Positions 24,763-47,042 of a DNA stretch of 64,000 nt are shown here, piece after piece. The notes beneath the pieces are model-generated. The model saw only the letters and a list, made by a program, of their open reading frames with translations, searched no databases and was not told the DNA's origin. How positions within the stretch are numbered: the stretch's first letter is position 1; every line of letters begins with the position of its first letter. This DNA is from Salinibacterium hongtaonis (GTDB lineage: Bacteria; Actinomycetota; Actinomycetes; Actinomycetales; Microbacteriaceae): assembly GCF_003065485.1 (NCBI RefSeq), contig NZ_CP026951.1, positions 124,001 to 188,000 on the forward strand. Direction: 5' to 3'. The translations under genes were made by a program, and so were the position numbers.

Positions 24763-25824
24763 CTACCCGAGTGCGCCGATCCATGCTCGCTCCAGCAGAT
24801 CGCGCAGGCCCGCCTCCGTGACGGGGCGAGGGTTGGCGTACGGGCTTGCGAGGGCTGCGGCAACCACAGTCTCGAGGTCTTCGTGCTTGACGCCAAGCTG
24901 CTCAAGCGACGAGGGAACATCCCATGCCGCTCGCAGCTCCACGAGGCGAGCTACAGGGTCGGCGCCGAGCGCGCGACCGAGTGCGGCCTGGGCCGACGGC
25001 GAGGATGCGAGGTTGTACTCGAGCACGTAGGGCAGCACGATCGTGTGCGTCTCCGAGTGCGGCAGGTTGAACGTGCCGCCGAGGATGTGGCACAGCTTGT
25101 GGTGCAGCGACATCGTGGTCGCGCCGAGGCACGATCCGCAGAGCCAGGCGCCGTAGAGCAACTCGGAGCGCCCGACGAGGTCGTCGGCCGTTTCGCGCAG
25201 GCGGGGGAGCCCGGCGGCGATCGCGCGCACGCCTTCCTCGGCCATGAGCTCGATCATCGGGGAGCGGTCGGGCGCCCAGAGGGCCTCGACCGCGTGCGCG
25301 ATGGCGTTCATGCCGCTTGTCACGGACATGCCGAGCGGCAGCGTGAGCGTGAGCTCGGGGTCGTAGACGACTTTGACGGGGAGGACGGCGCGGTCGCGTC
25401 CCGTTGTCTTGACGTTGTTCTCAGTGAGGCCCCAGACGGGCGTCATCTCGGAGCCCGCGTACGTCGTAGGGATCGCGACCGTGGGGATGCGGTACCGCAG
25501 CGATAGGGCCTTGCCGAGGCCGATGGTGGAACCGCCGCCGACCGCGACACAGCCGTCGGCCTGCATGTCGGTGACAACCGCTGCAGCCTCGTCGACGATT
25601 TCGATCGGCACGTGCATCCGCGCCTTCGTGAAGATGCCGCCGGCGATGTCGCCGAGGATGCCGGCGACGCGCTCGGCAAGGTCTGCCTGCTCGGGGGTCG
25701 AAAGCACGATCACTCGCGTGAGGCCGAGCTTTTCGATGTGTTTGCGCAACTGGCCGAGCGAGCCGACGCCGAAGGAAACGTCCATCGGCTGGGCGATGTA
25801 GTCAAACGTGATGGGGGTGCTCAT
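24763..25824 (-). CDS. Maleylacetate reductase
   Basis: Reduces maleylacetate to 3-oxoadipate with NAD(P)H, the step after hydroxyquinol ring cleavage. An iron-containing ADH-type fold is seen: GGGSTIGLGKALSLRYRIP at about residues 95-113, PTTYAGSEMTPVWG at about 118-131, and histidines in GMNAIAHAVEALWAPD (about 173-188) and HHKLCHILGG (about 240-249). The AGSEMTP and HHK-CH-LGG variants are typical of maleylacetate reductases. Length 353 aa. The ATG overlaps the stop of the hydroxyquinol dioxygenase gene (ATGA), which supports the pathway role. Confidence 0.9.
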   Translation of the reverse strand: MSTPITFDYIAQPMDVSFGVGSLGQLRKHIEKLGLTRVIVLSTPEQADLAERVAGILGDIAGGIFTKARMHVPIEIVDEAAAVVTDMQADGCVAVGGGSTIGLGKALSLRYRIPTVAIPTTYAGSEMTPVWGLTENNVKTTGRDRAVLPVKVVYDPELTLTLPLGMSVTSGMNAIAHAVEALWAPDRSPMIELMAEEGVRAIAAGLPRLRETADDLVGRSELLYGAWLCGSCLGATTMSLHHKLCHILGGTFNLPHSETHTIVLPYVLEYNLASSPSAQAALGRALGADPVARLVELRAAWDVPSSLEQLGVKHEDLETVVAAALASPYANPRPVTEAGLRDLLERAWIGALG

Positions 25825-26704
25825 GCGGCGGACTCCTCTTCATCGCGCGCGAGCACGATGTCGATTGTTGCGTGGTGGAAGGGGGCCTCGAGTCCCGACT
25901 CTGCGGCAAGGGCCGCATCGCTCGTCGGGACGAAGGGAACAACGAGGCTGCCGCGAACGGCGAAGACGGTGTCGGAATCGATGTAGGGGCTGTCGGCCAC
26001 AAAGATGTGGGTGGTCAGCTCGCGGAACCCGGGCGCGTTCACCATGAAGTGCACGTGCGCGGGCGGTACGGATGACGCCCCGTGAGGCCGAGCAGCTTGC
26101 CGACGGGCCCGTCGTCGGGGATCGGGTAGTGGCTGGGCACGATCGAGCGGAAGCGGAAGTTGCCGTCAGCGTCGGTCGTGAAGATGCCGCGGCCGTTGCC
26201 TGCCGGCTGCACTTCGGGCTGCTGCACGTCGTAGAAGCCGTCCTCGTTGCACTGCCAGACGTCGACCTCGGCGCCGGCGATGGGGTTTCCTTCGGGGTCG
26301 GTGACCCGGCCCGTGATGTAGGAGGGGTCGCCGCCCGGGAGCATGTTGATTTCGTCGCCGAGCTCGCGGCGAGGCGACTCTGTCATGTGGAACGGGCCGA
26401 GAACGGTCGCCTCGGTGACGTGCTCGTCGTCGCTGTCATTGAGCGTCTCCACGAGCATCGAAATGCCGAGAACATCGGAGAGCAGCACGAACTCTTGGCG
26501 AGTGTCGTCACACATGTGGCCGACCTGGGTGAGAAAGTCGATCGCGGTGTTGAGCTCGCCGGGGGTGAGCTGCAGCTCTTTGACGGCGGAGTGCAGGTGG
26601 GTCGTTACGACCTGCAGAATCTCGCGCAGGCGCGGTTCGGTGGAGGGGGCGAAGCTGTCGAGCACGGCCTGGGTCAGGTCGTCTCCGCTGAGGTCGGAGC
26701 TCAT
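25821..26704 (-). pseudogene. Hydroxyquinol 1,2-dioxygenase, interrupted by a one-base frameshift
   Basis: Intradiol Fe(III) dioxygenase that opens hydroxyquinol to maleylacetate. The start at 26704 has AAAGGA upstream. The N-terminal helical domain is followed by the catalytic domain with LGPFHMTESP (about residue 107), iron-ligand Tyr in NEDGFYDVQQ (about 161) and HYPIPDDGPVGKLL (about 194). The frame breaks near 26061, just before the expected iron-ligand pair: HVHF continues in the other frame, together with the normal C-terminal 75 residues. One added C in the coding strand repairs it (about 294 aa in all). As read, the product lacks both His ligands and would be inactive. Sequencing error is possible. 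Confidence 0.85.
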
Positions 26705-33648: not shown

Positions 33649-34568
33649 TTAGACCGTGACCCTCTCGGCGGCCGCGGGCATCTCAACGTCAAGCACGGAA
33701 AGCACGCGGCTCACGAGACGGTCGCGATCGGGAAAGATCGCTCGGTCTTGGTGCGCCACAGCCCGGCGCCCCGGTTGGCGTGCAGCTCGAAGGCCGACTC
33801 CCGAGCGTCAAGGGCCGAGCTCACGTGGTCCCACGCAAGGTGAAGTACGGCCGAGCGCTGCAGTGCCGTATAGCAGCCACCCCCAAACGACTGCTCGAGG
33901 CCAGCAAGCACGGGGTCGGCGAGTTCAGCATCCGACGGTGCCGTGACCATCGATGACCCGGGGATGATGCGCAGGATCTCGTTGAGCTTGCGCTGGTTCT
34001 GCATCATCCGCAGGCTGCCTGCGGCGAGGTGACGCAGGTTCGGCGACGGGATGCCCGTCGGCGACGACCAGTCGGGGTCGAGTTCGGATGCCACAAGGGC
34101 GCTTCGAACCGCCTCAAGCTCCACCATCATGTCGGTGAGGTGCTCGCGTGTCTTCGGGTTGCCCTTCTGCCCCATGATGTCGGTGAGCGCGAGGGCGAGG
34201 CCGAGCGAGAACTCGCCCTTGGCATACAAGCAGTAGAGCTGGTGCCAGTTGGTCCATGCCCACGTCACCTGGTCGGGGCGTGCAGCCGGCGGGCTGGCGG
34301 CGGATGCGGTGGGGAACACGCGATCCCAAGGCACGACGACATTCTCGAGCCACATTTGGGCGTCGAGTTCGTCGAACCGGCTGCTGAGCGGCGCCAGGAA
34401 GGGGTTCTCGTGGCGGGCGGAGATCTTGCGGGCCATGAGTCTGACGCCGGGGGAGTCGACCGCAACGGCGAAGGCCGCCCTGTGGTCGCCTAGCGTGACT
34501 CCGCTGCCGATGCGGATGTAGACATCGTCAGCGAAGGGTGAGGCCGAGTGCATCGCGATGCGCCCCGT
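33649..34568 (-). pseudogene. 4-Hydroxyphenylacetate 3-monooxygenase-like (HpaB) oxygenase, 5'-truncated and frameshifted
   Basis: The C-terminal two thirds of an HpaB-type FADH2-dependent phenol hydroxylase are recognisable: FAVAVDSPGVRLMARKISAR, ENPFLAPLSSRFDELDAQMW, WTNWHQLYCLYAKGEFSLGL, the GGGCYTALQRSAVLHLAWDH stretch and more. Family members have about 480-520 residues; here about 300 remain. Homology begins near 34568, directly where the neighbouring AraC-like fragment begins on the other strand. Near 33730 one base is missing in a C run; adding it gives the natural tail DRDRLVSRVLSVLDVEMP and a stop at 33649. No start codon or promoter is left, so the gene is dead whatever the cause of the frameshift. 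Confidence 0.75.
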
Positions 34569-35082
34569 CGCATCGCTCGCCGATGAACTCGACCAGGTCG
34601 ACGGCCGACTCGGCCTTCGACTCGCCCGGCACCTTCTCGACCTGTCGGCGACGTGCCTCATGAGCAGTTTCGATTCGCCGGAGCAGACGAGCGCCGGGTC
34701 CAGCAGCGCCACGCCCACGAGCGCCGCGTCAAATCACCGCGCGGCCTTCGCGATCCGGGAGTTCATCACGGCCAACCTCGCAGACCCCGATCTCAGCCCA
34801 CAGTCGATCGCCGCGGCGCACTTCATGTCGGTGCGACACCTCTATTCGCTGTTCAAGCACGACGAGGTTAGCGTCGCGTCTTGGATCCGAGCCAGGCGGC
34901 TCGACAACTGCCGCGCCGATCTCGCGAACCCCGCCCTGCGCGACCGCTCCATAAGAGAGATAGCCGCTCGTTGGGGCATCGCCGATGCCACGCACTTTTC
35001 ACGTCTCTTTCGGGATCGGTTCGGGGAGACGCCCCGCCTGTGGCGCGACCGATCAGTGCGCCAATCCGTGACTCTTAATTAG
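34569..35082 (+). pseudogene. AraC/XylS-type regulator, C-terminal part only
   Basis: About 170 residues covering the end of an AraC_binding_2-like domain (LADELDQVDGRLGLRLARHL) and a complete AraC DNA-binding domain: first helix-turn-helix LSPQSIAAAHFMSVRHLYSL and second SIREIAARWGIADATHFSRL, then FGETPRLWR. Full-length proteins have about 310-330 residues, so the N-terminal half is missing. An ATG at 34558 lies in the hpaB remnant and is unlikely to be genuine. It probably once activated the divergent hpaB-like gene. The stop overlaps the 3' end of the alcohol dehydrogenase gene by four bases. Confidence 0.75.
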
Positions 35083-36203
35083 AACGTGGTGATAACGGTT
35101 CGAGCCGCCGACCCGCTCCTCAGGTTCTCGAGACCCTTCTGAACGTCGTCGAGCGCGATGCGATCAGACACCATGTCGTCGAGGTTGAGCCTGCCCTGCA
35201 GGTACATTTCGGCGAGCAGGGGGATGTCGTGCTTGAAGTTCGAATTGCCCATGTACACCGTGCGCAGGTTGCGCTTCGAGAAGAGCAGGTCAACCAGAGG
35301 GTTGATCTCAAGCACCGTATCGGGCGCCTGGATTCCGATGAGGAACGCCGTTCCCGACGGCCGGATCATCTCCAGTGCCTGAAGTGCCGTGCGTTTGAGG
35401 CCCGCTACCTCAAACGAATACAGCACACCGAGCCCACCCGTGAGCTCGCGAACGCGCCCAACGGGGTCGACCTCGGCGGAGTTGATCACATCGGTCGCGC
35501 CCATCTTTCGGGCGAGTTCGAGCTTGTTGTCGTGAACGTCGATTGCGATGACCCGGCGGGCCCCCGCGAGGATCGCCCCCTGGATCACCGAGAGTCCCAC
35601 GCCGCCGCAGCCGATGACGGCAACAGTGTCGCCGACGCGGATGCTCGCAGCATTGATTGCGGCGCCGGCACCTGTGATCACGCCGCATCCGAGAATGGCG
35701 GCACGGTCGAACGGCATCTCGTCGGGAATGACAACGACGCTGTTTTCGTGCATGAGCGCGTACTCGGCGAAGCCGCCGATGTGCGCGAACGCCGTCACCT
35801 CGGTGTTACCGATCGAGACCCGGGGAGTTGCACCTTCGGCGCGCTCGGTCTCGTGCACGTTCGGGCACATGAAGGGGCGGCCCGAGATGCAGTCGATGCA
35901 GTGGCCGCAGTGCGCAACCTCGCACGCAACGATGTGGTCGCCGACCGCAAGGCCAGCGACGGCGTCGCCGAGGGCAACAATTACCCCGGCGATCTCATGC
36001 CCCGGCACAAGAGGAGCCGGGTAGTGTCCTGTGTCGTGCTCGCACACATGCAGGTCACTGTGACAGATACCGCTCGCCTTGACCTGCACGAGAACCTCAT
36101 GTGCGCCCGGCTGCGAGATCGCCACTTCCTGAACGACAAGAGGCTCTCCGACCGTGTGGAGAACGGCGGCCCGCATTGTGGTGGGGATCGTTGCTGCGCT
36201 CAC
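35079..36203 (-). CDS. Zinc-dependent alcohol dehydrogenase (class III-like MDR)
   Basis: Likely oxidises an alcohol made by the P450s encoded just upstream. Seen: catalytic zinc ligands in GICHSDLHV (Cys about 47) and GHEIAGVI (His/Glu about 71), structural cysteines in CGHCIDCISGRPFMC (about 102-116), Rossmann motif IGCGGVGLSVIQGAILAG at about 191-208, and IDVHDNKLELA with an Asp fitting NAD. Length 374 aa. The GTG start overlaps the stop of the second P450 gene (GTGA), strong evidence for one operon. It resembles NDMA-dependent/class III enzymes in the cysteine layout, but the cofactor details are not certain. Confidence 0.87.
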   Translation of the reverse strand: MSAATIPTTMRAAVLHTVGEPLVVQEVAISQPGAHEVLVQVKASGICHSDLHVCEHDTGHYPAPLVPGHEIAGVIVALGDAVAGLAVGDHIVACEVAHCGHCIDCISGRPFMCPNVHETERAEGATPRVSIGNTEVTAFAHIGGFAEYALMHENSVVVIPDEMPFDRAAILGCGVITGAGAAINAASIRVGDTVAVIGCGGVGLSVIQGAILAGARRVIAIDVHDNKLELARKMGATDVINSAEVDPVGRVRELTGGLGVLYSFEVAGLKRTALQALEMIRPSGTAFLIGIQAPDTVLEINPLVDLLFSKRNLRTVYMGNSNFKHDIPLLAEMYLQGRLNLDDMVSDRIALDDVQKGLENLRSGSAARTVITTF

Positions 36204-37480
36204 GCTGCGGTGAACGTGACGGCCACGCGGGTCGGAATGCGAAAGTTGAAGCCAGGGCCCGGCTCGAGGATGCTGTTCTCCTCGTCGAGCGCAATATTGC
36301 TCAGGCGCGATAGCAGGCGCTCGAATCCGACCTGCGCGTAGAGGCGCGCGAGTGGAGCGCCGGGGCAGCGGTGGGTGCCAGCGCCGAAGCTCAGGTGATG
36401 AGCCATGTTGCGGCGGTTGGGGTTGAACTCGTACGGGTCCTCGAACTTGGACGGGTCGTGGCAGGCTGCGCGGAACGACGCGAACACAATCGAGCCCTCG
36501 GGGATCTCGACCCCCTCGACAACCGTCGTCGTGACTGCGCGGCGAGGGTGCCACTGCAGCGGGCCCTCAAGTCGCACCGATTCTTCAACGAACTTGCGGA
36601 ACTTGCTCGGGTTATCGCGCAGCTCCTGCTGCAGCTCGGGCAGGCGGCACAGATGCACGGCCGCCGACGCGAGCATGGCGGATGTCGTGTGGTAGGTCGA
36701 GAGGATCATCGAGCGCACATGAACCACCATGGCGTTCTTGTCGAACTCCCCATCGCGGTCCACCTGCGCCTTGACGACATCGCTCAGATAGTCGCCCACT
36801 GGTTTCTCCAGGCGGGCGAGACACTGACGGTAGGCATAGTCGGAGCTCTGCTCGAGGGCGAGCCCCGCGGCGGCGGCCTCCTCGGGAGACGGGGTTCCCA
36901 TGCCGACCTTGGTGATGGCATCCGTCCACCCCTTGATGGTCGACGCGTCCTCACGAGGCAGGCCCATGATGATGGTTAAAACCTCAAGGGGCAGCGCCTC
37001 GGCGAAGTCCTCCGTGAAGTTCGCGCGGCCCTCAGAGATGAACCTGTCAATGAGGCTATCGGCAACCTCGGCGATGACGGGGGCATAGGCATCCAGACGG
37101 TGCTTTTCGAAGAGCATCTCGGCCCACGAACGCTTGACCTCGTGGTCATCGCCTTCGGTGAACGCAATGCCCTCGATGCGGTAGTGGCTAGAAACCTCGG
37201 GGTAGGGCGGAACGATGAGACCGGCAAGCTCGGGGAGCACCTCGGTGAGATCTGAGTCGAACTGGGTGTCGTCGCGAAGGATGTGCGAGACGGCATCCCA
37301 CGACGAGGCGAAGAACATCGGGCGGCCGTTGGGGTGGGGCTGGGGAAAGCTATAGACGCCGGAGATGCCGCGAAGCTTCTCGAAGTACGCAGCAGGCTGC
37401 TTTCGGGTCTCCTGTGTAGGTGGCCAGGATTCCAACTCGGCGGCGGTTACCTCGCGAATGAGGGGAGCGGGTAGGGACAT
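36200..37480 (-). CDS. Cytochrome P450, second tandem copy
   Basis: Class I haem-thiolate monooxygenase using electrons from the reductase two genes upstream. Seen: ExxR at residues 300-303, haem-binding FGAGTHRCPG (365-374) with the Cys ligand 372, and the helix I sequence STYHTTSAML at 261-270. In most P450s the residue before the Thr pair is Asp or Glu (AGxD/ETT); here it is His 264. Length 426 aa, identical to the first copy and aligned without gaps at all these motifs, so the two arose by duplication. Start ATG at 37480. The substrate is unknown. The alcohol dehydrogenase gene overlaps its stop. Confidence 0.92.
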   Translation of the reverse strand: MSLPAPLIREVTAAELESWPPTQETRKQPAAYFEKLRGISGVYSFPQPHPNGRPMFFASSWDAVSHILRDDTQFDSDLTEVLPELAGLIVPPYPEVSSHYRIEGIAFTEGDDHEVKRSWAEMLFEKHRLDAYAPVIAEVADSLIDRFISEGRANFTEDFAEALPLEVLTIIMGLPREDASTIKGWTDAITKVGMGTPSPEEAAAAGLALEQSSDYAYRQCLARLEKPVGDYLSDVVKAQVDRDGEFDKNAMVVHVRSMILSTYHTTSAMLASAAVHLCRLPELQQELRDNPSKFRKFVEESVRLEGPLQWHPRRAVTTTVVEGVEIPEGSIVFASFRAACHDPSKFEDPYEFNPNRRNMAHHLSFGAGTHRCPGAPLARLYAQVGFERLLSRLSNIALDEENSILEPGPGFNFRIPTRVAVTFTAA

Positions 37481-37584
37481 GAACAATACCTCCGTTGGTA
37501 TAGCTGATGCGAAAAATAGGCCGGGAGACGCGGCTGTGCCTGCCTGTCTCCCGGCCGATGGTGTGACCCGAGTTAGCTCTCGAA

Positions 37585-38865
37585 TCAAGCCTTGTCGAAG
37601 TTGACCTGCACCCGGGTGGGGATGCGGAAGTTGAAGCCGGGCAGCGGCTCCAGATCACTGAGTTCTTCGTTGATCGTCAGGTTGCGCGTGCGGGCCAGCA
37701 GTCGTTCGAACGCAACCTGGGCGTAGAGCTTGGCGAGCGGGGCGCCGGGGCAGCGGTGAATGCCAGCGCCAAAGCTCAGGTGGTGCATGAGGTTGCGTCG
37801 AGTTGCGTCGAATGTGTAGGGGTCTTCGTACTTGTCGGGGTCGTGACTGCCCGCACGGAACGACGTGAACACAATCGAGCCGGCGGGGATTTCTACGCCG
37901 TCGATCTCGATGGTGTTGACCGCGTGACGCGGGTGCCACATGAGCGGGCCTTCGAGGCGCATCGACTCCTCAAAGAACTTGCGAAAGCTCGTCGGGGTGT
38001 TACGAATCTCGTCCTGCAGCTCGGGCATCTCGCACATGTGCACGGTCGCGGCCATCAGGGCGCCCGCGGTGGTGTGGTAGGCCGCGAGGAACATGTTGCG
38101 CACGTGGCTGACCATAACGTTCTGATCGAACACGCCGTCACGGGCGATCTGATGCTTGATGACCTCGCTGAGGTAGTCGTCGCCCGGGTTTTCGAGGCGA
38201 GAAAGGCACTGCTTAAGGACGTACTCGGAGCACTCGGCGATCGCGCGCTCAGTGTTGGCGACCTCCTCTGCGGTGGGGGCCGTCATGCTGAGGCGCGTGA
38301 CAACATCCGTCCAACGCTTGATGTCGGCGGCGTCTTCGCCCGGCAGTCCCATGATGATGGTGAGAACTTCGAGGGGGATCGCCTCGGCGAAGTCTGCGCT
38401 GATGTTGGCGGTGCCTTCGTCGATGAACTTGTCGATCAGGCGGTCGGCGACCTCGGCGATTACGGCGCTGTACCCGGCCATGCGCTCGGGCGTGAACAGC
38501 ATGTCGGCCCAGACGCGCTTCACATCGTGGTCTTCGTCCTCGGTGAATGCGATGCCTTCTGGGCGGTAGTGGGTCGGCTTGTCGGGGAATGGAAGCTGCA
38601 GCATGGCCGCGATGTCAGGCAGCACGGTGGCAAGGTTGGAGTCGAACTCGTCGGTGTGCTTGAGGATGTGCGAGACCGCGTCCCAGCTCATGGCCAAGAA
38701 GATCGGGCGCCCATTGGCGTGCGGGTTGGGGAAGCGGTAAACGCCGGCGCCGGCCTTTTCGCGCAGCGCGTCGAAGTAGGCAGCGGGCTGCTTGCGGGTT
38801 TCAGGGCGCGGAGGCCAGGTTTCGAGTTCTTCGGCGGTGACTTCGAGCAGGGTTGGCGTTGACAT
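37585..38865 (-). CDS. Cytochrome P450, first tandem copy
   Basis: Haem-thiolate monooxygenase, 426 aa. Seen: FEESMR with ExxR at residues 300-303, FGAGIHRCPG at 365-374 with Cys 372, and helix I LAAYHTTAGAL at 260-270, again with His 264 where Asp or Glu is usual. Shared blocks with the second copy include ETRKQPAAYF (23-31), EGIAFTE (103-109) and PLEVLTIIMGLP (164-175). The gene lies 63 bases after the reductase and 104 before the second P450 on the same strand. Keeping two copies suggests different substrates, two positions on one substrate, or a heteromeric role. Family assignment below P450 level was not possible. Confidence 0.92.
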   Translation of the reverse strand: MSTPTLLEVTAEELETWPPRPETRKQPAAYFDALREKAGAGVYRFPNPHANGRPIFLAMSWDAVSHILKHTDEFDSNLATVLPDIAAMLQLPFPDKPTHYRPEGIAFTEDEDHDVKRVWADMLFTPERMAGYSAVIAEVADRLIDKFIDEGTANISADFAEAIPLEVLTIIMGLPGEDAADIKRWTDVVTRLSMTAPTAEEVANTERAIAECSEYVLKQCLSRLENPGDDYLSEVIKHQIARDGVFDQNVMVSHVRNMFLAAYHTTAGALMAATVHMCEMPELQDEIRNTPTSFRKFFEESMRLEGPLMWHPRHAVNTIEIDGVEIPAGSIVFTSFRAGSHDPDKYEDPYTFDATRRNLMHHLSFGAGIHRCPGAPLAKLYAQVAFERLLARTRNLTINEELSDLEPLPGFNFRIPTRVQVNFDKA

Positions 38866-38928
38866 CGTTTTGCTCCAGTGAGTTCTGTGGGTAGGGGTTC
38901 GAGCGGAGGGCGAAGCCTGGAGTGCGGC

Positions 38929-39983
38929 CTAGAGGTCGAGCACGAGCTTCGAGCATTTGGAGCGCGAAACGCAGATCATCATGCAGGTGTTCTCTGCCTG
39001 CTCTGCGGCGCTCAGCACGGAATCGCGGTGGTCGGCCTCTCCTTCGATGATCTGTGTCTCGCATGAACCGCAGGTGCCCTCCGAGCACGAGTAGAACACG
39101 TCAACGCCCGCCCCCTTGGCGGCCTCGAGGATGGTGGTGTCTGGGCCGATGGTGAGTGTGATTCCACTCGCCTGCAGTTCGACCTCGAACTCGTCGAGCT
39201 GGTCGGTCACGATGATCTCCTTGGGGGTGAAGCGCTCAAGGTGCAGAGCGCCGGCGGGCCAGTGGCTGCTGAAGTTCTCGACGGCTCCGAGCAGTGGGCC
39301 GGGACCGCAGGTGTAGATGAGGGTGTCGTCGTGGACCTCGCCGAGCAGGCCGGGCAGGTCGATGAGACCCTTCTCGTCCTCTGGCCAGATAACAAACCTG
39401 TCGCCGTGGGCTGCGAGCTCCTCAACAAACGCCATCGAGTCTTTGCGGCGGCCGCCATAGACGATCTGGTAATCGGCTCCGGATGCCGCTGCGGCGGCCA
39501 CCATGGGAATGAGGGGGTCACGCCGATGCCGCCGGCGATAAAGATGTAGCGATTCGCGGCGGCGAGGGCGAAGTTGTTGCGGGGGCCGACGATGGTGACC
39601 GTGTCCCCCTCGGCGAGCGTGGAGTGAATGTATTCGGAGGTGCCGCGGCTGGTGGGCTCACGCAGCACGCCGATGCGGTAGCTCGAGAGGTCGCTCGGGT
39701 CTGAGCACAGCGAGTACTGCCGCGTGAAGCCCTCGGCGACGGTGATGTCGATGTGCGAGCCGGGCTCCCAGGCGGGGAGGGCACTGCCGTCGGCGTCGGC
39801 GAGGGTGACCGAGCGAACGCCGTCTGCCTCGTCGCGGATCCCAGCGACGGTCAAGGCGAGTGTGTGCTCGCCGCGGGGGGTCTTTGTTGAGCTTTCGAGT
39901 GCTGTGGTGGCCACCGCGACCATCTCCTTCACGTCAGGTGCAGAGGGTTCCTGGCCGTGTGGGCGAACCATGGTTCGATCCAC
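38929..39983 (-). pseudogene. P450 reductase: FAD/NAD(P) domain plus C-terminal 2Fe-2S ferredoxin, one-base frameshift
   Basis: Single-chain electron donor of the phthalate dioxygenase reductase/VanB type. Seen in order: flavin-binding RQYSLCSDP at about residue 88, nucleotide motif FIAGGIGVTP at about 150-159, CGPGPLL, then a plant-type ferredoxin with YSCSEGTCGSCETQ and a last Cys in ENTCMMI. The frame breaks in a run of five G on the plus strand (39513-39517), just after GVTP; one added base restores the natural sequence LIPMVAAAAASGADYQ. About 350 residues in all. The GTG start at 39983 has GAGGTGG upstream. As read, both P450s would lose their donor, so checking this base matters. Confidence 0.85.
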
Positions 39984-40040
39984 GAAGGACCACCTCTTTG
40001 TGTGTAGCGATCATTACATGCAGAACATAGACAAGCAATA

Positions 40041-40107
40041 GTCAGGGCATACGGATGTGGCGATGATTCATACGCAATTGACTGTTGACGACATCTCATG
40101 CCCTGAC
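40041..40107. promoter_or_regulatory. Inverted repeat in the reductase/tetR divergent promoter
   Basis: GTCAGGGCAT (40041-40050) and its exact reverse complement ATGCCCTGAC (40098-40107) flank 47 bases. Minus-strand TTGCTT with TAATGA 16 bases on could be the reductase promoter. The arms are likely binding sites of the adjacent TetR protein, one per promoter. Confidence 0.5.
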
Positions 40108-40119
40108 AGGATGGACTTC

Positions 40120-40740
40120 ATGCCTCGCTCACTGACCCTGCGCCAAAAGCAGGGCGTCGAATCGCGCGAGCGCATCCTCGACGCTGCTGTTGATCTGATC
40201 TTCGAAAACGGGTACTCCGGGACCTCTGTTGCCGCTCTGTGCGCGCGCTCTGCGCTGCCCGCGAGTTCGATCTACTGGCACTTTGGCAGCAAAGATGGTG
40301 TCGTCGCGGCGGTGGTCAAGCGCGAATCGGAGCGCTTCTTCGCCGAGCTGCCTACGTGGGAGTCGTCTTCTTCTGGCGGCGACGTAGTCGAGCGCTTCAC
40401 GCGGTACATGGAGTCCGTCGGTGCAGCGACCCGAGAGGAGCCGCGCTTCTTTCGCGTACTCGTCACGCTCGCCATGGAGCCCGTGGACATCAGTGACGAC
40501 ACCATCGAATCCATCCGCAGGGTGCGCCAGAGCGGCCTGGACTTTATTGCCGGACCAGTCTCCGAGGTCATCGCGTTTCTCGGCAGCAGCAAAGACCCCA
40601 TGGAGATCGCCACGTTCTGTTTTGCGGTGCTCGAAGGTTCGGCGATCGGTCGCCGGGTCGACCCCGAACACATCAGCATGCCCATCGTGTATCGCCAAAT
40701 AGCGCAAGCGGCGATCGCCCTGGCGCTCGCCGCCGACTGA
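40120..40740 (+). CDS. TetR-family regulator, probable repressor of the P450 operon
   Basis: N-terminal TetR helix-turn-helix: RERILDAAVDLIFENGYSGT at about residues 14-33, then ALCARSALPASSIYWHFGSKD at about 38-58. The C-terminal ligand domain is about 130 residues and ends in ALALAAD. The ATG at 40120 is preferred because AGGA lies eight bases upstream and the HTH starts at the usual distance; ATG at 40111 or earlier would overlap the inverted repeat. About 206 aa. It is divergent from the reductase-P450-P450-ADH operon, with a shared inverted repeat between them, and ends at a strong two-way terminator. The inducer is unknown. Confidence 0.88.
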   Translation: MPRSLTLRQKQGVESRERILDAAVDLIFENGYSGTSVAALCARSALPASSIYWHFGSKDGVVAAVVKRESERFFAELPTWESSSSGGDVVERFTRYMESVGAATREEPRFFRVLVTLAMEPVDISDDTIESIRRVRQSGLDFIAGPVSEVIAFLGSSKDPMEIATFCFAVLEGSAIGRRVDPEHISMPIVYRQIAQAAIALALAAD

Positions 40741-45962: not shown

Positions 45963-47042
45963 ATGACTGCGCTCTACACCAACCCCACCCGGGTCTATGC
46001 AGGACTTGGTTCGAGCGATTCGCTCCTCGATCACGTCGCGACGCTCGGCGGCAGCCGCATCGCCCTTATCGGCGACGCGGGACTCAAACGAGTCGGCGTG
46101 CTCGATCGCTTCGAGCAGCAGCTCGGTTCCGCTGTTGTCTTTGTCGGTCTTGCCGAGGTCGACCCCACGATCATCGCGTCGGAGGCTGCGGCCGCAGAGG
46201 CGACAGCCGCAGGCGCAGATATCGTCATCGGCGTGGGTGGTGGCAGTGCACTCAGCCAGGCCAAGGCCGTCGCGCTGCTCCTCACCAACGACGCCCCCGT
46301 CGAGCAGTATGAAGGAATCGGCCTTGCGCCGCAGCGCCCCGCTCCCTTCATCGCGGTTCCCACCACTGCAGGCTCCGGCAGCGAGGTCTCCAACGCATTC
46401 GTGCTCTACAACACCGAGAGCAGCCACAACGTTGGCATGCGTGGCTGGGGTTATGAGCCCGATATCGCGGTTCTCGACGGCAATCTTCTCGTCGGGCTCC
46501 CCGAGGTTCCCATGCGCGATGCTGCTGCGGATGCCCTCAGCCACGGCTTCGAAGCCCTCTGGGCAAAGGGAGCAACCCGGTTCACCGACACCGTTGCGCT
46601 CGCCGCGGTGCGTACGATTCGCGAGACCCTCCCTCGTGCGCTCAAGGAGCGCCGCCCCGAAGACCTTCAGTCGCTGCTCGAGGCGTCGACCATGGCCAAC
46701 TTCGCCTGCGGCAATGCCGGGCTGAGCCTCATCCACGCCCTCTCTGGCTCGTCGAAGATTCGCATCTCTCACGGCCGCCAAAACGGTGTGCTGCTGCCGA
46801 TCGTCGCGGAGTTCAACCGCAGCGTCGTCTCACGGGAGGTCAGCCTCGAGATCGATCTGCTGCCCGAACTTTATGCGGCAGCGGGTATCCCCTCGGCGTT
46901 TGAGGCCGACGAGCTCATCGACACGGCAGAAGACGAGTTCTTTGAGGCCGGGGCGACTAGCCCGTTCCGCCGCAACAACCGGCGCGACTCCAGCGATGAG
47001 CAATTGCGCGAGCTTGCTCGCCTCGCGACCACTCCGCGTTAG
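45963..47042 (+). CDS. Iron-containing alcohol dehydrogenase
   Basis: Group III Fe-ADH, 359 aa. Seen: GVGGGSALSQAKAVALLL at about residues 87-104, PTTAGSGSEVSNAFVLY at about 130-146, and the metal-site histidines in ADALSHGFEALW (about 187-198), IHALSG (about 253-258) and ISHGRQNGVLLP (about 264-275). It is related to maleylacetate reductases and to medium-chain alcohol dehydrogenases; the AGSGSEVS form is the general Fe-ADH one, so I do not call it a second maleylacetate reductase. A CGAAGGACAACG ribosome site precedes the ATG. It is the first gene of an operon with ALDH and a class II aldolase. Confidence 0.83.
   Translation: MTALYTNPTRVYAGLGSSDSLLDHVATLGGSRIALIGDAGLKRVGVLDRFEQQLGSAVVFVGLAEVDPTIIASEAAAAEATAAGADIVIGVGGGSALSQAKAVALLLTNDAPVEQYEGIGLAPQRPAPFIAVPTTAGSGSEVSNAFVLYNTESSHNVGMRGWGYEPDIAVLDGNLLVGLPEVPMRDAAADALSHGFEALWAKGATRFTDTVALAAVRTIRETLPRALKERRPEDLQSLLEASTMANFACGNAGLSLIHALSGSSKIRISHGRQNGVLLPIVAEFNRSVVSREVSLEIDLLPELYAAAGIPSAFEADELIDTAEDEFFEAGATSPFRRNNRRDSSDEQLRELARLATTPR

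Follow-up and report, generated by a model that had tools for sequence, protein, structure and literature searches.

What does it mean when the two cytochrome P450s (P450s) of one bacterial operon both carry a histidine at the helix I site that is usually held by an acidic residue? The question is raised by a locus of Salinibacterium hongtaonis (GCF_003065485.1, NZ_CP026951.1, positions 124,001-188,000 of the forward strand; this whole stretch of 64,000 nucleotides is the window, and coordinates are counted within it). On its minus strand, genes for a reductase, P450-1 (37585-38865), P450-2 (36200-37480) and a Zn-dependent alcohol dehydrogenase (ADH) follow one another in this order, and a TetR-family gene diverges from them, which agrees with the divergent unit of P450s and alcohol dehydrogenase described in a first-pass annotation of this DNA. 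A PF00067 search of the whole 2.81-Mb single-contig genome found no P450 genes besides this pair. The likeliest answer, to which we give roughly an even chance of being right, is that a His-Thr relay like that of the sterol demethylase CYP51 arose independently in a catabolic P450 module that resembles the camphor (cam) operon.

Both P450s are 426 residues long and read YHTT at residues 263-266, so that His264 occupies the site of the usual Asp or Glu; the motif is preceded by A-A in P450-1 and by S-T in P450-2. The pair has what defines a PF00067 member, namely the P450 fold, ExxR (E300-S-M-R303 in P450-1) and the FxxGxxxC loop with its Cys ligand (FGAGIHRCPG in P450-1, FGAGTHRCPG in P450-2), and the heme Cys, ExxR and helix I Thr265 are retained in both copies. 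What differs is the helix I acid-alcohol pair (D/E-T), usual but not universal in PF00067, which is H-T in both. In a phmmer alignment with CYP144A1, A-A-Y-H-T-T sits over A-G-G-E-S-T; His therefore stands where the acid would be, and Thr265 falls on the usual helix I Thr/Ser. An acid at a shifted position is ruled out by this alignment together with that of 103 other P450s, and the replacement in both copies, as first annotated, has thus passed a check of the register. An AlphaFold2 model of P450-1 (23-row alignment; mean pLDDT 87.8, pTM 0.87) gives a confident P450 fold in which helix I spans residues 248-279 and helix F, by sequence position, residues 176-190. Among solved structures VIA-align 2 matches it best to P450BioI (3eje_B; Z 45.5, rmsd 2.1 A, 372 aligned residues, 26% identity), with many bacterial P450s only slightly below among the matches listed.

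The first-pass annotation took the His to be conserved rather than a random mutation and the pair to align without gaps. The two copies are 63% identical, lie 104 nt apart and are under purifying selection (dN 0.28, dS 1.06, ratio about 0.26), and their MAFFT alignment has two 2-residue gaps that compensate each other close to the N-terminus. The His is indeed kept in both, which suggests that it predates the duplication; as an argument for conservation this is weak, because at such identity any single residue is retained more often than not. A somewhat stronger argument may be that YHTT forms an island of identity between the copies, with changed neighbours on both sides.

How unusual is a His at this site? 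Among the 103 other P450s the residues were Glu (69), Asp (17), Ala (4), Val (4), Gln (3), His (3), Ile (2) and Gly (1), that is, an acid in 86, A/V/Q/I/G in 14 and His in three. The three His rows read A-G-H-H-T-T and group as one clade in a FastTree of 105 rows; L067, the row that was searched, is a CYP51 (E 1e-205 to 7tef). Three loci retrieved by similarity to the pair (L013, L015 and L024) have Gln or Ile, and nine further loci (L216-L224), outside the census count, have Glu or Gln. The census was a non-random sample of 112 loci, of which 22 came from searches with the pair, 30 were the best PF00067 matches of their genomes and 60 were taken from consecutive rows of the PF00067 list (E 2.3e-32 to 2.5e-24), leaving out higher PF00067 rows without a locus and the unlisted remainder; 100 loci yielded a protein (three of them two), 12 yielded none by the heme-motif filter, and some rows are near-identical (for example L106/L107, L126/L138 and L018/L026). 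Within this sample most P450s, though not all, thus have the acid, and apart from the pair a His there marks CYP51. A His that is common among many unrelated bacterial families, an outcome that would have refuted the first-pass annotation, finds no support in three rows of a single clade, and the view of His at this site as unusual stands. Two side observations concern the same site. Another member of the class, with a genome of 1.3 Mb, carries two P450 genes in tandem (L021, 1213-2451 and 2476-3708), and these have the usual Glu. From 71 stretches of IMG/VR viral contigs with a heme pattern (L142-L212) we obtained 47 P450-like open reading frames (ORFs) with heme motif and ExxR, several of them near-identical across samples; L189 shows Arg in place of the acid.

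A His at this position has a known job in CYP51, and its presence in the pair is therefore no sign in itself of impaired or exotic catalysis. The helix I motif is A-G-H-H-T-S in Mycobacterium tuberculosis CYP51, and a table of helix I motifs gives AGQHTS for annelid CYP51A1 (PMC4229089). According to passages in two reviews, proton delivery in CYP51 involves the helix I His and a helix F Asp, H314 and D231 forming a salt bridge that serves this purpose in the human enzyme and H317 and D233 being thought to gate proton uptake in yeast, and the enzyme runs three consecutive cycles that remove a methyl group (PMC8102919, PMC7908997). The human double mutant appears as D231A/H314A in these passages and as D205A/H314A in one from PMC12192976.

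Did the pair inherit its His from CYP51? In the 105-row FastTree the pair stands apart from CYP51, alone on a long branch within the soluble P450s of bacteria; this tree carries a warning about meeting long branches, including those of the CYP51 rows. A mixture-model tree of 40 rows in which the pair was constrained to join the three CYP51 rows came out 54 lnL worse (p-AU 0.0077), and shared ancestry is accordingly rejected. This test covered 40 of the 105 rows at 'quick' tree settings, on a group picked after the census, and kept the helix I columns, a choice that favours the grouping. The best BLAST rows of the pair are non-CYP51 (29-35% identity, E 3e-44 to 1e-48), whereas CYP51 rows align at 23-30%, mostly over partial lengths, with E 5e-14 at best. 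CYP51 chains were absent from the 60 sequence matches listed for each P450 and from the 50 structural matches listed, which, such lists being incomplete, excludes nothing alone. As grouping with CYP51 is rejected, the His looks like an independent gain. No report of an AAYHTT motif in non-CYP51 P450s was found in the open-licence literature.

The pair so far appears to be a solitary branch of bacterial P450s within the surveys made. With one P450 of the pair (P0002) as query, E 1e-40 or better was reached in one of 398 genomes of the family, its own, and in 19 of 394 genomes of the class including its own, the other 18 giving general P450s at 27-36%. With a profile of the pair at 1e-45, its own genome was the only hit in 396 genomes of the order, and 17 of 396 in the phylum, its own included, gave hits, the others listed scoring 156-172 bits against 919-935 for the pair. 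The four surveys (394-398 genomes each) overlap and scored at most four first-look candidates per genome, so that a relative could be missed in P450-rich genomes. Searches by two short peptide patterns gave one 28% match in a genome-contig set and none in viral contigs; in a plasmid set all 422 records fell under 60%, with the 30 listed at 25.8-30.3%.

The partners of the pair suggest how it may be driven. The reductase (38929-39983, minus strand) consists of a flavin/NAD part (ORF 39207-39983) and a C-terminal 2Fe-2S part (ORF 38929-39504). When the two were searched apart, 39519-39983 matched residues 471-588 and 38929-39504 matched residues 598-785 of 6kbh; 6laa and 2pia, the latter a phthalate dioxygenase reductase (PDR), were matched by both parts too. 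Since the parts match consecutive stretches of one chain, they constitute a single PDR-type gene that is frameshifted in the assembly, in a run of C. The flavin-NAD module and the C-terminal 2Fe-2S ferredoxin that characterise PDR/VanB reductases are both there; the single intact ORF is not. A 'dedicated', single-chain VanB-type reductase, as first annotated, therefore survives as to type and as to its place beside the P450s, which it would serve; its reading frame is split, and the genome holds two other intact Fer2 reductases (ORFs of 327 and 326 residues) of PDR-like architecture by eye. The Zn-dependent medium-chain ADH (35079-36176, minus strand; 365 residues from ATG 36176) was said to overlap P450-2, which is so, by 4 nt, only from the alternative start GTG 36203; ATG 36176 lies downstream of the P450 stop. 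The enzyme scored nearly the same against NDMA-dependent ADH, with 298 bits where the cut-off is 440, and against mycothiol-dependent formaldehyde dehydrogenase, with 292 bits where it is 512.9, and so passed neither. Class I and III ADHs make up most of its PDB matches listed, benzyl alcohol dehydrogenase ranking further down; the enzyme might remove formaldehyde after O-demethylation. The TetR-family gene (40120-40740, plus strand) has its longest ORF from GTG 40057 and probably starts at ATG 40120, just upstream of the onset of TetR homology. Between this start and the reductase lies a perfect 10-nt inverted repeat (40041-40107; arms GTCAGGGCAT at 40041-40050 and ATGCCCTGAC at 40098-40107, 47 nt apart), a candidate operator. 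A scan for promoters and terminators gave no signal exceeding chance.

The operon is carried by a genomic island of about 41.7 kb (13316-54986, borders taken from the genome G143). Four of four same-genus genomes match the window up to about 13.3 kb (a UbiA gene) and then directly from about 54.99-55.03 kb, with 6 to about 120 bases at the junction, fewest in G143, and only scattered short matches across 28-47.5 kb. As the flanks are directly joined in all four, the operon sits on a stretch that they lack, presumably through insertion in this genome; loss in all four is less likely. The core genes compared beside the island align to the same-genus genomes over most of their length. Further cargo includes dioxygenase, Fe-type ADH, flavin reductase, FAA hydrolase, HpaB-type, short-chain dehydrogenase (SDR) and transporter genes, and the island is probably catabolic, for aromatic or alicyclic compounds, to judge by this gene content. 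Several details of the cargo deserve mention. An intradiol dioxygenase gene (25780-26704), the second frameshifted gene of the island, has a C-terminal part that runs on in another frame. At 34550-34730 an N-terminally truncated HpaB-type gene (minus strand) and a C-terminal AraC/FeaR-like fragment (plus strand) abut with their 5' ends, resembling a deletion or recombination scar. The two Fe-type ADHs (24763-25824 and 45963-47042) are 27% identical and perhaps maleylacetate reductases, a name which is a guess. Close beside the island, a second stretch at about 7.4-12.4 kb is a variable spot, missing from three same-genus loci (L046-L048) and largely present in the fourth (L049).

We therefore propose that an independently gained, CYP51-like relay serves a cam-like module that would work as follows. 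The divergent TetR protein would regulate the unit, in a layout much like that of the camphor operon, and the PDR-type NAD(P)H-flavin-2Fe-2S reductase would pass electrons to the two paralogous soluble P450s, in which the helix I relay pair is His-Thr instead of Asp/Glu-Thr; the ADH would then oxidise the alcohol that they produce. His264 would most likely serve to relay protons in O-O cleavage, the role reported for the helix I His of CYP51, by analogy with which it would have an acidic partner in helix F. A candidate for this partner is D187, common to both copies and located in predicted helix F, which shares an alignment column with an Asp of the CYP51 rows and may correspond to human D231. 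Judging solely from the gene context of the island, the substrate may be an alicyclic, terpenoid or alkyl-aromatic compound, on which the P450s may divide their labour or of which, as the first-pass annotation had it, they may hydroxylate one twice. Several points weigh against this proposal. The acid site is naturally loose, as the 14 P450s with A, V, Q, I or G indicate, and His may be tolerated rather than used; the D187 column is also Asp in 35 of the 103 P450s; with no relative found, conservation of the His is known from two paralogues only; and the frame of the reductase is broken in the assembly, which may reflect a real mutation or an assembly error.

The first of these points leads to the alternative that survives best, a possible but clearly less probable one, in which His264 is neutral or fits the substrate and Thr265 with a water delivers the protons, as in other P450s without the acid. 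That several such enzymes, the three pair-like loci with Gln or Ile among them, do without the acid agrees with it, whereas YHTT is identical in both copies although the flanking residues have changed, and the CYP51 His is reported, in the review passages cited above, to act in proton delivery. More ambitious than the relay that we favour, and somewhat doubtful, is the idea that a non-CYP51 lineage independently evolved a gated His-acid relay for successive oxidations of one substrate by twin P450s; if true, the His would be a hallmark, reached by convergence, of P450s with multi-step chemistry and not a relic of sterol demethylases. That the altered relay is the sign of an unusual reaction (oxidative coupling, C-C cleavage or dehydrogenation) in place of hydroxylation we consider unlikely. 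StaP, a presumed precedent said to use a helix I His, appears with 2z3t and 2z3u in the list of the 50 best structural matches, and CYP51 itself performs the three-cycle demethylation described above, but many other P450s tie with StaP in Z, and the co-encoded ADH fits an alcohol product. Decay of an acquired island in which the His no longer matters, to which the frameshifted reductase and dioxygenase and the mutually truncated HpaB-type and AraC genes might point, is quite improbable given that the two P450 genes and the ADH gene have uninterrupted, full-length frames, that dN/dS between the copies is low, that intact reductases of like architecture are encoded elsewhere in the genome and that the frameshifts may be assembly errors.

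CYP51 provides a precedent for the chemistry of a His at this site; the novelty lies in the independent emergence of such a His in a solitary pair that is accompanied by a separate PDR-type reductase gene. Should the His indeed relay protons, the CYP51-type His-Thr relay would have arisen at least twice, and a small soluble P450 from a bacterium would be easier to handle than the membrane-bound CYP51s for probing gating, coupling and successive oxidations. The solitary branch points to under-sampled bacterial P450 diversity, and its pairing with a free-standing reductase, the like of which is otherwise known as part of P450 fusions, may be of use in biocatalysis.

How, then, does the module compare with known systems? 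The closest solved P450s by fold or sequence, among the matches listed, are P450BioI (3eje), CYP144A1 (5hdi) and CYP267B1 (6gk5), which are only about 25-27% identical to the pair, and CYP144A1 differs in having retained Glu at the acid site. The closest solved structure to the operon reductase, again among the matches listed, is the reductase part of 6kbh and 6laa; these records are named only 'Cytochrome P450', and we take them to be CYP116B fusions. Unlike in such fusions, P450 and reductase are separate genes in the operon, and other P450s match the pair better. The cam operon has a divergent TetR-type repressor, CamR, a Zn-dependent ADH, CamD, and separate reductase and ferredoxin genes. 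As in camRDCAB of Pseudomonas putida, where the genes for the repressor, camphor hydroxylase and hydroxycamphor dehydrogenase are described as one unit in the relevant passage of PMC6352141, the gene order here would place a divergent TetR, P450 and Zn-dependent ADH in one unit; in place of separate ferredoxin and flavin reductase genes there is a single-chain PDR-type reductase, and there are two P450s, with the acid replaced by His. What the pair has in common with CYP51 (for example PDB 1e9x and 7tef) is a His-Thr sequence that begins at the acid site of helix I (A-A-Y-H-T-T here, A-G-H-H-T-S there). The pair differs from CYP51 in forming a separate clade at 23-30% identity, mostly over partial alignments, in having no Gly before the variable residue and in belonging to a multi-gene module with its own reductase and ADH genes.

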